From a virus: a stretch of DNA of 35,204 nt. The first letter of the stretch is position 1. Every line of letters begins with the position of its first letter. Location: the IMG/VR virus record IMGVR_UViG_3300030116_004711, positions 1-35,204 of that record. One strand, 5' to 3'. This document shows positions 29,411 to 35,204 of the stretch, piece by piece. The notes below the pieces were generated by a model that saw only the letters and a list, made by a program, of their open reading frames with translations, was not told the DNA's origin and searched no databases. Position numbers and translations under genes: made by a program.

Positions 29411-30412
29411 ATGATTTATACAAACTATGAAGACCTAAGAAAAGCAGTAGACATTAAAGCTAATGTCAGAGAAGACCAAGTAATCAATAGTAGAGAATTT
29501 ACTATGAATAATAACCTAAATGGTAATTTATCTGGTGAGGAGTATGGTTTATCAAATACTTTTCATTCTCATTTAGCACATAGACTAAGAATACCAAAGT
29601 CTTATTATGATAGAATTAGAAAAGACCAACCTGAATTATTAGCTAATTCTGTAAATGCTTTAAATGATAATAAGAATAGATTATTCAGATTTTATAAAAA
29701 TGAAGGCAAGACTGAAATAAGAGGTATGCTTTCTGACAGATATAAGATTATGGATAATAAAGAACTACTAGATTATTTAGAGCCACACTTTGAAAGTAAA
29801 AAGATGGTTCTTTTAGAGGGTCAGTTAGATGATTCTTATATGAGTTTAAAAGTTAGATTTCCTGATTTAAAAGGTCAGCCAAAACAAGGTGATACTTGTT
29901 ATGGTGGTATCTATCTTAGAAATTCAGAGGTTGGATTATCTTCCTTAACATTTCAAACATTAGTATATAGATTAGTTTGCACCAATGGTTTGATGTTACC
30001 TAAAGCTGATTCTTTTCAAAACAGTTTTCATTTAGGTAAAAGGAATGAAATAGGTATTAGACCTAATTACATCATCCCAGATGTAGTATGCAATCAAATT
30101 GATGAAAGTATTACTAAACTAAATAATAAAACTGATTTCATAGATAATATTGAAAGATTAAAGTTAGCTACAAGGACTCCTGTTTCTAAATTAGATTTTG
30201 ATAAAGTAAAATCAGAATATACTCTAAATGATAAAGAAATGGAAATATTTGAATTAGAATACAATAAGGAAAAAGATGGTAGCCTTTATGGTGTAATTCA
30301 AGCATTTACTGGTACTGGTAGAGCAATGAGAAATAGCAGAACTCTTTATCTTGAAAAGACTGGAGGCGATTTACTAACAAATCGTTCTTTAGTAGAAAAA
30401 CTTGTAGCTTAA
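29411..30412 (+). CDS. DUF932 family protein
   Basis: A 333-aa member of DUF932 (phage/plasmid-like protein), common on phages and plasmids and of unknown function; suggested roles involve replication or protection from host defence, without proof. The hallmark Arg-Leu-Val-Cys-Thr-Asn-Gly-Leu sits near 186-193, preceded by Leu-Ser-Asp-Arg-Tyr-Lys-Ile-Met-Asp-Asn (about 105-114), with a helical C-terminus ending in Leu-Thr-Asn-Arg-Ser. AAGGAGAAAATT precedes the ATG behind promoter copy 3. Its TAA overlaps the next ATG. Confidence 0.87.
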   Translation: MIYTNYEDLRKAVDIKANVREDQVINSREFTMNNNLNGNLSGEEYGLSNTFHSHLAHRLRIPKSYYDRIRKDQPELLANSVNALNDNKNRLFRFYKNEGKTEIRGMLSDRYKIMDNKELLDYLEPHFESKKMVLLEGQLDDSYMSLKVRFPDLKGQPKQGDTCYGGIYLRNSEVGLSSLTFQTLVYRLVCTNGLMLPKADSFQNSFHLGKRNEIGIRPNYIIPDVVCNQIDESITKLNNKTDFIDNIERLKLATRTPVSKLDFDKVKSEYTLNDKEMEIFELEYNKEKDGSLYGVIQAFTGTGRAMRNSRTLYLEKTGGDLLTNRSLVEKLVA

Positions 30413-30624
30413 TGATTCAATTATCTGAAAAAGATAAAAAAATTATTTCAACTCTAGTGTCTGAATATCAAAAGGCACTAGAGTTACAAGGCTATTGCGG
30501 TGATGAATTGTTTGATCAGCTTTGTATCAAATCTGATGAACTTGCAGACAAATACAAAATAGATAGAGATACTTTCTGGTATTTCTTTTTTAATTATAAC
30601 GATTTCCCTAAATCTCTAAACTAA
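30412..30624 (+). CDS. hypothetical acidic protein, 70 aa
   Basis: A small helical protein with alternating charged residues and an aromatic C-terminal Phe-Trp-Tyr-Phe-Phe-Phe-Asn-Tyr stretch. The ATG overlaps the DUF932 stop (TAATG), so it is co-translated. It ends on the stop of the converging primase-helicase gene (CTAA shared). No family is recognised; it may assist the DUF932 protein. Confidence 0.68.
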   Translation: MIQLSEKDKKIISTLVSEYQKALELQGYCGDELFDQLCIKSDELADKYKIDRDTFWYFFFNYNDFPKSLN

Positions 30625-32387
30625 TCTTTATTATACCATTTATCTTCATTTGAAGATTTACTATTAATTGGAGCAACATCTATCTCTACTTCTTTATAGA
30701 CTTTTGTTGAAGTATTGTATTGGAATGAGGTCTGTCCTATTTCTCCATATAATCCTTGCTCCCTAACTTTCTTTGTATAAACAATAGTTTCACCACTATC
30801 AAAATCCCTATGCACACATAAACCTACATCTGCCATATTATGCCAATGTGCTGATCCAGATATGTCATACATACTAGGAACTGGGTATGTTCCATCATTA
30901 TTCCTATGCATTTTAGATGGGTGTGCAACTATCCATACTGAAACATTGTGTGTTCTAGCAAATCTTTTACATGAGGCGATAATATCTTTAATGTATTCAT
31001 CCTCTCTTTTTTTGCCTCTTTTATCTGTATCTATTTCATTATATGGGTCTATTACAATACCATTTATTCCATTTTTAATTACTGAAACTCTAGCTTTATC
31101 TAATATCCAATCTATTGTAGGTCTTTGCTCTCTACTCTCTAAAAAGAAAAAATGATTGTTAATATACTTCATAGCTGTAATCAGTTCTTGCTCTGACATT
31201 TTTCTTGCAGCTCCTTCATTGAATGGTAATTCAAGGTATTTTTCTGCTAATCTAGTAAGATGTCTTGGAGTAGAATGTTCTGGTGAAAAAATGGCAAACT
31301 TCCAATTATGTAATTTACTAGCATTCATTAATATTTGATCTAGAAAATTAGATTTTCCATGATTAGGAATACCTGTAACTACTGTAAATATACCTTGCAT
31401 TAATTTATAAGTCTGATCTAGTAACTTATATCCTGTAGTTAAAGGCTTTTCTTCTTTGCCATAATATAAATCCATTACTTGATTAATGTAATCATTAGCC
31501 TTGTATAGTCCATCAATAGGATATGGCACTGCCTTATTAACGAAATACTCTATTGTGTCTTTTGCTCCGTATACTAATGCATCACTAGCATCTTTAATTT
31601 CTATATCACCTCCGATAGTACCCCAATTAAGTCTAGAGCATCTATCTTTACCAAACCTATGTGCTAATTCTAATGCAAGAGCATTTCCTGCATCGTCATT
31701 ATCAGTTGCTATGATTATTGCCTGTTCCTGTGCTAGTTCTTCAGCGTGTACTTTTAATGCCTCAAATCTTGCATCATCTTCTTTGTATTTTGCCTCTTTA
31801 GGTGCACCATCTGGTAAACTTACTACTTTTCTATATCCACATTCATAAAAAGATAATACATCTAATTCTCCCTCTACTATTATTAATGGTTCATCAGTTT
31901 CTTCATGCTTTAATGAATCAATATTATACAGTGTTCTTTGTGCATCTTTTGTTTGTCTAAATTCTTTGTCAATACTTCTGTATTTATAATTTACTTCTTT
32001 GCCATCATAAATATATGGGAATATAGCTGTTTCTTTAACTTGACCATTGAATTTTAATTTATCAAAAGTTATTTTAAAATAATTTAATGTTTCATTACTA
32101 ATTTTTCTGTTTATAAAAAATTGTTCATATTTAGTGTCCATTGGTTTTTTCTCTACTGTTTTAGGCACTGCATATAACTTTCTACTAGAATATGGATAGT
32201 AATGTTGCTTTGCAAAATTAGGAGAATAACCACCTTGATCTCCACAATGATGACAGTGCCAGACATAACTTTGGTCTGATTCAACTGTAACTGATAAGCA
32301 TTTATCTAACTTATTTTTTCTAGTATGGCTACATTTAGGACATTGGATTTTATTATTTCCAATTCTTAATCTTGATACATTTATCAT
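30621..32387 (-). CDS. primase-helicase (T7 gp4-type)
   Basis: A 588-aa replicative primase-helicase. Residues 16-48 are a zinc-binding primase domain (Cys16-x2-Cys19 and Cys45-x2-Cys48). TOPRIM is at about 165-240, with Glu-Gly-Glu-Leu-Asp (172-176) and Thr-Asp-Asn-Asp-Asp-Ala-Gly (228-234). The DnaB-like RecA ATPase has Walker A Gly-Ile-Pro-Asn-His-Gly-Lys-Ser (339-346), Ser-Pro-Glu-His near 368, Walker B Ile-Val-Ile-Asp-Pro-Tyr (444-449) and a Val-Ala-His-Pro sensor (487-490). It unwinds DNA and makes primers at the phage fork. It converges with the DUF932 pair with overlapping stops. DNA polymerase is not in the window. Confidence 0.93.
   Translation of the reverse strand: MINVSRLRIGNNKIQCPKCSHTRKNKLDKCLSVTVESDQSYVWHCHHCGDQGGYSPNFAKQHYYPYSSRKLYAVPKTVEKKPMDTKYEQFFINRKISNETLNYFKITFDKLKFNGQVKETAIFPYIYDGKEVNYKYRSIDKEFRQTKDAQRTLYNIDSLKHEETDEPLIIVEGELDVLSFYECGYRKVVSLPDGAPKEAKYKEDDARFEALKVHAEELAQEQAIIIATDNDDAGNALALELAHRFGKDRCSRLNWGTIGGDIEIKDASDALVYGAKDTIEYFVNKAVPYPIDGLYKANDYINQVMDLYYGKEEKPLTTGYKLLDQTYKLMQGIFTVVTGIPNHGKSNFLDQILMNASKLHNWKFAIFSPEHSTPRHLTRLAEKYLELPFNEGAARKMSEQELITAMKYINNHFFFLESREQRPTIDWILDKARVSVIKNGINGIVIDPYNEIDTDKRGKKREDEYIKDIIASCKRFARTHNVSVWIVAHPSKMHRNNDGTYPVPSMYDISGSAHWHNMADVGLCVHRDFDSGETIVYTKKVREQGLYGEIGQTSFQYNTSTKVYKEVEIDVAPINSKSSNEDKWYNKD
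30642..30657 (+). terminator. possible weak terminator for the DUF932 unit
   Basis: ATCTTC (30642-30647) and GAAGAT (30652-30657) form a six-pair stem with an ATTT loop, about 18 bases after the stop of the 70-aa gene and inside the converging helicase gene. The AT-rich stem has no long T run, so termination would be weak. Confidence 0.3.
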
Positions 32388-33750: not shown

Positions 33751-34281
33751 TTATATAACATTAACTATTTTTTTTATAGTTGCAAAATTTTTATCTAGTT
33801 CATCTTGATTATCATTATTTAAAAAAATAATTTTTCTTTTAAAATTTAATTTACAAATATTATTTATTTTCGTATTTCTACCTTTTATGAATCTCTCTGA
33901 TTGGTTGTCTTGTCTGTCTATATGTCTTTGTTCTGTATGATTACTTTTAATAATAATTGTATTTAAACTGCTCCACTGATCTAAATATTCTAAAATACTA
34001 GATGTAAACAATCTATCGCCCTCAAATAAAATATTATACTTATATTGTTTTTGTATTAACTTTTTGAAATCATTGTGAACTGCCATAGATAGTAAATCTG
34101 TTCCTTCGAATACTTTATTTTGTCCATATTTTCCCACAATCATCAAATTAATATCCTTATTATGATGCCCTTGCACTAAACCAAATTTGAAGTTTTGCCA
34201 AGTATTGTATTCTTTGAAAAATTTTCTTACTAATGTAGATTTACCTACTGCAGGCAAACCACCTATTGCTAAACTTATCAT
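33751..34281 (-). CDS. P-loop kinase, candidate 5-hydroxymethyl-dU DNA kinase
   Basis: A 176-aa P-loop NTPase with Walker A Gly8-Leu-Pro-Ala-Val-Gly13-Lys14-Ser15-Thr and a probable second motif Leu-Phe-Glu-Gly-Asp-Arg-Leu-Phe near 84-91. The Arg/Gln-rich C-terminal region (about 118-140) resembles the lid of small nucleotide kinases. It overlaps the transferase-like gene by ATGA. In thymidine-hypermodifying phages a 5-HMUDK kinase activates 5-hydroxymethyl-uracil in DNA with a pyrophosphate group, and kinases lie beside amino acid:DNA transferases. The specific role is inferred from context; a general nucleotide kinase is the alternative. Confidence 0.72.
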   Translation of the reverse strand: MISLAIGGLPAVGKSTLVRKFFKEYNTWQNFKFGLVQGHHNKDINLMIVGKYGQNKVFEGTDLLSMAVHNDFKKLIQKQYKYNILFEGDRLFTSSILEYLDQWSSLNTIIIKSNHTEQRHIDRQDNQSERFIKGRNTKINNICKLNFKRKIIFLNNDNQDELDKNFATIKKIVNVI

Positions 34282-35204
34282 ATTGCCAACTCCTGATGAT
34301 TAAAATGACCATTATCTAAAAAAAAGTTATATTTATCTTTGTCTATGTTTTTTGATGTGTATAATTTTTTATTTAAACATTCTTCTCTGCCTTGCCAAAA
34401 AACATTCCAGTCTATACCAGTCCAGTTGTCCTGTTCTACTTTCTTGATTTCCTCTGCTTGTCTGTCTAAATAATATCCTAAATACCTACCTCTTGTTCTT
34501 CTAAAAATTTTTTTAAAACTACAAAGCACAGTTTCCATCTCATAAAAATTACTTTTCTTATATTGATTAATATTTTGTAGAATATTTTTACTTTTATGCT
34601 CTAATATGCTATACTGTTTATTAGTCAATTTTGCATTAATTAAAGAGTCTTGACCTAAAGCATATAACAGACCATTCCTATGACTTTTGCTACCAGAATA
34701 ATCATTTAATTTTAAAGTGTTAGGTTCTAGTTTTATATTTGCACAACTATGTAAAGTTTGCATATAAAACCAAGTGCTATATCTACCAAACTTGTATAAA
34801 TTATTTTTTATTTCACTCCAAACTATTTCAAAATTATTTTCAGGGTAAGAATTAAATTTTTCAAGCTGTAATTTACTAGGGTTAAAAGATTCTATCCATT
34901 TTTTATAACTTAAAAATTGTTGTGGTAAATATCCTTTATTATACTTTGTATCAGTTTGGTATCTTAGCCTACTATAATTTGCATCATTCCATTCTTTTAA
35001 TCTATCATAATCTACTAACTCAAAATCTGGAAACTCATTCCAAATTATCCAAGCTGTAGGTAAATAATAAGTTGTACCATACAAAAAACATATCCAAAGT
35101 TTTTGTTCCGTATTATGCTCAAATCTATCAAATAAATAATTAAGTAAATAAATACTAGGGTCGCAATCGTTGTACTTGATACTCCACTTGTACCAATCCT
35201 CGAA
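34278..35204 (-). CDS. amino acid:DNA transferase-like protein (5' end missing)
   Basis: The reading frame is open to the window edge (308 visible residues), so the TTG at 35084 is internal and the true start lies outside. Motifs that I associate with the amino acid:DNA transferase (ADDT) family described with thymidine hypermodification are visible: Tyr-Gly-Thr-Thr-Tyr and Trp-Asn-Glu-Phe-Pro-Asp near the left part, a Phe-Gly-Arg-Tyr-Ser-Thr-Trp-Phe-Tyr-Met segment, Gly-Ser-Lys-Ser-His-Arg-Asn-Gly-Leu-Leu-Tyr-Ala-Leu-Gly and Glu-x-Val-Leu-Cys-Ser-Phe then Arg-Gly-Arg-Tyr-Leu-Gly-Tyr-Tyr. Such enzymes attach an amino acid to pyrophosphorylated hydroxymethyl-uracil in DNA. ATGA joins it to the kinase gene. 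The family call comes from memory of conserved motifs and needs checking. Confidence 0.65.
   Translation of the reverse strand, partial: FEDWYKWSIKYNDCDPSIYLLNYLFDRFEHNTEQKLWICFLYGTTYYLPTAWIIWNEFPDFELVDYDRLKEWNDANYSRLRYQTDTKYNKGYLPQQFLSYKKWIESFNPSKLQLEKFNSYPENNFEIVWSEIKNNLYKFGRYSTWFYMQTLHSCANIKLEPNTLKLNDYSGSKSHRNGLLYALGQDSLINAKLTNKQYSILEHKSKNILQNINQYKKSNFYEMETVLCSFKKIFRRTRGRYLGYYLDRQAEEIKKVEQDNWTGIDWNVFWQGREECLNKKLYTSKNIDKDKYNFFLDNGHFNHQELAI

Follow-up and report, generated by a model that had tools for sequence, protein, structure and literature searches.

Two kinds of phage base hypermodification come closest to the locus reported here. In the classical route, 5hmdU is present in the nucleotide pool, a 5hmdU DNA kinase then acts and transferases follow; amino acid:DNA transferase (ADDT) and kinase homologues serve this route in M6, ViI and PhiW-14, and M6 and the Kuttervirus, which carry a divergent thymidylate synthase (TS) homologue, make 5hmdU as a nucleotide (PMC6449724). 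Kinase activity on 5hmdU DNA has been demonstrated (PMC7653180). The second kind, TET-based cytosine hypermodification of the phage Melnitz type, relies on a TET/JBP dioxygenase accompanied by tailoring genes. The phage TETs tested to date are reported to act on 5mC (Burke 2021, as cited in PMC12730594). Beyond phages, kinetoplastid base J, made by JBP1/2 and a glucosyltransferase, shares with the lineage described below the proposed first step, TET/JBP hydroxylation of thymine in DNA, and differs from it in being tailored by glucosylation instead of by a kinase and amino acid transfer.

We analysed a 35,204-nucleotide stretch of viral DNA (IMG/VR record IMGVR_UViG_3300030116_004711, positions 1 to 35,204; hereafter the window), at the right edge of which lie two genes that are members of a viral pathway attaching an amino acid to the virus's own DNA bases (Table 1). 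A first-pass annotation had proposed that these genes, a P-loop kinase and an ADDT-like transferase, hypermodify thymidine supplied through a dUMP hydroxymethylase. Its biochemical class and both of its gene families are upheld by what follows, and base hypermodification is strongly supported; the dUMP hydroxymethylase route is not, and thymine is the likely base by inference from the evidence assembled below.

Table 1. Features towards the right end of the window (coordinates are those of the window).
Feature	Position	Strand	Remarks
Replication gene	30621-32387		Toprim and DnaB_C
P-loop kinase gene, predicted 5-hydroxymethylpyrimidine DNA kinase	33751-34281	-	176 aa, ATG start; PHROG 800
Kinase Walker B-like motif, EGDR	34012-34023	-	E87, G88, D89 and R90 invariant in 36 relatives
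Kinase Walker A motif, GGLPAVGKST	34234-34263	-	G8, P10, G13, K14 and T16 invariant in 36 relatives
ATGA shared by the ADDT stop and the kinase start	34278-34281	-	Translational coupling
ADDT gene, amino acid:DNA transferase	34278-35204	-	308 codons in the window; 5' end beyond the window edge

The ADDT frame is open from the window edge to its stop, and its product matches Pfam PF18724 over most of the domain (E 9.4e-21; 75 bits against a curated cut-off of 26.2; profile positions 11-229 of 232) as well as PHROG 3271 (E 3.6e-45), the family that also holds the Kuttervirus ADDT. The profile search that had been suggested for this gene bears out its reported resemblance to the ADDT family, at a level far beyond chance, and the frame does run off the edge. 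A full-length copy with 99% identity on another contig (L079, 2870-3832) encodes 320 aa, so the window copy is short of only approximately the first 12 codons. Searches of solved-structure sequences with the ADDT, as a single sequence or as a profile, returned no match, and a profile scan of genome contigs found one MAG fragment and no clear prophage. When Kuttervirus, M6 and PhiW-14 were searched with a profile of the window-type ADDT, the Kuttervirus protein was the only ADDT found. The predicted activity of the window protein is transfer of an amino acid to a phosphorylated 5-hydroxymethyl base in DNA.

The coupling of the two genes by a four-base ATGA overlap, noted from the sequence at the outset, is present; the naming of the kinase as the first gene holds for the map only, because transcription, which runs along the minus strand, reaches the ADDT before the kinase. 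The Walker A motif seen in the kinase is perfect. The assignment of this protein to the HMUDK type stands in one respect and fails in another: it matches PHROG 800 (E 3.5e-12), the family of the M6, PhiW-14 and Kuttervirus kinases (E 2e-39, 7.1e-46 and 1.3e-67, respectively), but does not match the Pfam profile HMUDK_HMUD1 (PF18748) at any E-value up to 1. M6 gp54 matches PF18748 at 7.7e-18, and the PhiW-14 kinase, like that of the window, leaves it unmatched. Conversely, the best hits of a window-type kinase profile in M6, PhiW-14 and Kuttervirus are exactly their PHROG 800 kinases, at weak E-values (2e-4 to 1e-3). The grouping of the window kinase with the 5-hmdU DNA kinases through PHROG 800 is supported at the sequence level, and its predicted activity is phosphorylation of a 5-hydroxymethyl base in DNA. 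The ViI-like Kutterviruses, M6 and PhiW-14 resemble the window in combining a PHROG 800 DNA kinase, acting after formation of a hydroxymethyl pyrimidine, with a transferase of the ADDT family.

Pfam gives the window kinase only weak, generic AAA matches (25 of 36 relatives match PF18751, P-loop Nucleotide Kinase3, at best 2.1e-13), solved-structure sequence searches return generic P-loop matches only, and the best PDB matches of its AlphaFold model (pLDDT 91.5) are NMP kinases. Both the generic Pfam matches and the modeled NMP-kinase-type fold would suit an ordinary nucleotide kinase that supplies precursors and is unconnected with ADDT function. We consider this very improbable, however, given that the kinase-ADDT linkage is near-invariant (of the 81 ADDT-set sequences, 79 carry a same-cluster kinase), that PHROG 800 membership is shared with 5-hmdU DNA kinases, and that the kinase accompanies TET genes in Melnitz and in actinophages too. 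PHROG 800 bears the name 'terminase small subunit', which we regard as wrong because M6 gp54 and the PhiW-14 kinase both belong to this family. Public records likewise give this name to 5-hmdU DNA kinases of M6 (NC_007809, 41685-42248) and PhiW-14 (NC_013697, 31347-32132) and to the kinase of Cr30 (NC_025422), so automated annotation will mislabel the window kinase.

A dUMP hydroxymethylase had been expected past the right edge of the window. Contig L079, which shares 10.9 kb of collinear sequence with the window at 96% nucleotide identity and extends 2.9 kb further, does carry a hydroxyl-making enzyme there, but it is a TET/JBP 2-oxoglutarate (2OG) dioxygenase (Tet_JBP, PF12851, E 3.7e-21). 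On one strand and tightly packed, L079 encodes ParB_N, Tet_JBP, a class II glutamine amidotransferase (GATase), a weakly GNAT-like protein, ADDT and kinase. The TET gene next to the ADDT covers the hydroxyl-making step without a TS homologue. Of 31 relative records, 30 contain PF12851, the sole exception being the window itself, which is cut at the edge, and all 31 contain a kinase homologue. Across 81 sequences the recurrent order is (ParB)-TET-GATase-[amidoligase]-GNAT-ADDT-kinase; when counts are restricted to the 46 loci whose sequence extends more than 4.5 kb beyond the ADDT on its upstream side, 45 have TET, 46 GATase and 44 kinase, and the terminases and neighbours of these phages differ. 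One group with this operon order carries T4-like replication genes; in T4-like relatives a conserved 284 aa gene that follows the kinase (L071, 2544-3398, and relatives; cluster c20) is possibly glycosyltransferase-like, with weak Pfam matches.

Taken together, these observations are best explained if the window pair is the downstream half of a ParB-TET-GATase-amidoligase-GNAT-ADDT-kinase hypermodification operon acting on thymine in DNA, a reading drawn from sequence comparison to which we assign a probability of roughly 0.65. The first enzyme of the pathway is probably a TET/JBP-type oxygenase that acts on thymine in DNA, not one that makes a nucleotide, and bases that are already part of the DNA are the most likely site of modification. 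The identities, order and linkage of the genes, and the lack of a TS-type hydroxymethylase or C5-methyltransferase (C5-MTase) in the records searched, can be read directly from the sequences.

The window lineage is distinguished from M6 and Kuttervirus by the TET/JBP oxygenase near its ADDT and by the lack of a TS-type enzyme in the records searched: PF00303 exceeded its cut-off in 0 of 31 relative records, including records of 53.8, 63.9 and 166.8 kb, although most of the 31 are fragments. A sub-threshold match in one record (G010; 13.1 bits over 64 positions) was taken as chance. The cytosine C5-MTase profile PF00145 was likewise without a match in the 31 records, most of them fragments, so a methyltransferase or hydroxymethylase could sit off the contig and its absence from the window lineage is provisional, complete isolates excepted. 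In the classical pathway a dUMP hydroxymethylase encoded off the sequenced fragments would supply 5-hmdUTP, and TET would have another role. ADDT and kinase homologues do serve that pathway elsewhere, as described above, but the PF00303 result, the linkage of TET to 45 of 46 loci and the nature of the only PF00303 protein of Cr30, discussed below, render it improbable for the window lineage.

Thymine hydroxylation itself was inferred from the missing C5-MTase and a residue of the TET base pocket. In the TET of the window lineage the iron ligands, the 2OG arginine and the stacking tyrosine (H212, D214, H263, R276 and Y282) are invariant, and its membership of the TET/JBP family is seen in the PF12851 profile match, the HxD...H motif, the 2OG arginine and the aromatic residue at +6. 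Its AlphaFold model (pLDDT 90.3) aligns with human TET2 (Z 21.1, rmsd 3.5, 261 residues) and with NgTET1 (Z 19), compared with Z values of 14 or less for AlkB/FTO relatives; solved-structure sequence searches with a single TET sequence or a profile gave no match. A tree of phage TETs splits into groups separated by long branches. Eight residues after the 2OG arginine of the phage enzymes, and thus at R284 of the L079 TET, lies the position that we take, from the TET2 motif, to be that of TET2 His1904. This position is Arg in 135 of 135 alignable members of the window clade and Asp in 80 of 80 members of the MTase-linked Melnitz-type clade, a contrast between two deep clades only, which amounts to one or two evolutionary events and not to 200 independent ones. 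Melnitz-type TET loci have a C5-MTase beside the TET gene in 74 of 80 cases, and those lacking one on the fragment retain the Asp; unlike these, none of 80 ADDT loci and none of 67 further window-clade TET loci contained a Melnitz-type C5-MTase by tblastn. As a hydrogen-bond donor Arg would suit thymine O4, and Asp, an acceptor, cytosine N4, which makes the Arg that replaces His1904 a candidate thymine-selecting residue.

The same comparison bears on a cytosine version of the pathway, in which TET would oxidize 5mC put in place by a methyltransferase of the host or by an unlinked one of the phage, and the kinase and ADDT would build an amino-acid derivative of 5hmC. The 5mC activity described for known phage TETs speaks for it, as does the homologous kinase that adjoins a C5-MTase and TET in Melnitz; since the kinase family occurs in that company, the kinase alone does not imply thymine. 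We nevertheless judge the cytosine version unlikely, because PF00145 is absent from the 31 relative records and from ten complete TET-phage genomes, because the base-pocket Asp of the MTase-linked clade is replaced by Arg in the window clade, and because dependence on host 5mC would yield sparse modification at best. In Melnitz itself (L119, 4010-8090) a C5-MTase, a TET, a 427 aa protein and a window-type kinase stand in a row in a genome without ADDT, likely a cytosine pathway that shares the window-type kinase.

The ten complete genomes are those of Cr30, HTVC112P, P12024L, DLP6, C48C1, S-CBWM1, Serendipitous, Prairie, Ottawa and LittleMunchkin, and none has a PF00145 match. The nine other than Cr30 have no PF00303 match either. 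At the position of TET2 His1904 six of the ten have Arg, and four actinophages, whose TETs are without a C5-MTase, have Leu or Ile. The cultured Caulobacter phage Cr30 resembles the window lineage in having TET, ADDT and kinase and no C5-MTase in its complete genome; its one TS is canonical-looking, matching PF00303 at 6.7e-112, whereas the divergent enzymes of Kuttervirus and M6 match at 1e-14 to 4e-18. Unlike the window lineage, Cr30 has these genes spread over approximately 9 kb, with a TET-associated-glycosyltransferase-like gene and an inositol-1-phosphate synthase between them, and a GATase/GNAT module was not identified beside its ADDT. As Cr30 is cultured and combines TET, ADDT and kinase without a C5-MTase, it makes the thymine proposal testable.

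Several cultured-phage TET/JBP genes carry the label 'SNF2 DNA repair protein' or 'queuine tRNA-ribosyltransferase' (KF301602, 59353-60681; NC_048106, 3729-5165; KU682439, 27179-28525; MN698246, 7599-8507; NC_051587, 813-1730). Kinase-like genes near ParB-TET in Serendipitous (L283, 3088-3654), Ottawa (L285, 4567-5109) and LittleMunchkin (L286, 2503-3048), genomes without C5-MTase, match the window-type kinase profile at E 1e-16 to 1e-18. Other MTase-free TETs lie beside glycosyltransferase or sugar-nucleotide genes (Prairie L284, 3782-6053; P12024L L279, 6911-8539; S-CBWM1 L282, 3729-7139), neighbours that suggest glycosylated and not amino-acid-modified bases. Many window-clade TET loci yielded no ADDT, and on the TET tree the ADDT label switches approximately ten to twelve times, partly owing to truncated loci. 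This patchiness suggests that ParB-TET is the older core, to which amino acid transfer was added as one of several tailorings.

Elsewhere in the window, a further 2OG-Fe(II) oxygenase, from a different family (PF13640, 8.5e-15), lies at 1264-1842, at the opposite end from the ADDT-kinase pair, and a DUF932 protein (2e-6) is encoded on the opposite strand at 29411-30412, between the replication gene and the packaging genes. The window terminase is less than 50% identical to terminases of diverse phages, no phage record matched the right-hand portion of the window at the DNA level, and a tRNA search found none.

For the operon acting on thymine in DNA we envisage the following course, in which the succession of the steps, the use of an amino acid and the protection of the DNA are putative. 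Normal thymine-containing DNA would be made, and the TET/JBP dioxygenase, perhaps with the ParB-like protein as its guide, would hydroxylate the thymine 5-methyl group in DNA to give 5-hydroxymethyluracil. The P-loop kinase would then phosphorylate the hydroxymethyl group, and an amino acid would displace the phosphate through the action of ADDT. Tailoring of the amino acid by glutaminase and amidoligase, and by GNAT, could add an amide or acyl group. The invariant catalytic-type residues of the GATase (Cys2, Arg70, Asn92-Gly93), together with Amidoligase_2 (PF12224) matches in 11 of 15 members (best 2.1e-8), point to a later amidation of the amino acid carboxylate in some relatives; we put this forward as conjecture, together with acylation of the amine by GNAT. 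To depart from the classical route in this way, the window lineage would need only to obtain the hydroxyl differently, through in situ TET oxidation. The outcome would be virion DNA shielded from host nucleases, and resistance to restriction may reasonably be expected by analogy with M6, ViI and PhiW-14 (PMC6449724).

That the upstream enzyme is other than the one predicted is an informative difference within a known biochemical class. We lean, if only slightly, toward a widespread phage lineage in which thymine is modified with an amino acid after replication, through TET/JBP hydroxylation of thymine, a kinase-ADDT finish and Arg as a candidate selector. Iyer et al. 2013 reportedly discussed phage TET/JBP specificity and gene clusters and may have predicted the thymine idea earlier, and we make no claim of priority. 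If the proposal is true, thymidine hypermodification at the nucleotide level and modification initiated in DNA by TET, treated so far as separate, would become joined. The specificity for thymine versus 5mC could be addressed both at a single residue and in a cultured isolate, Cr30, and bacterial viruses would provide a thymine hydroxylase that could be set against JBP and might serve to write 5hmU into DNA.
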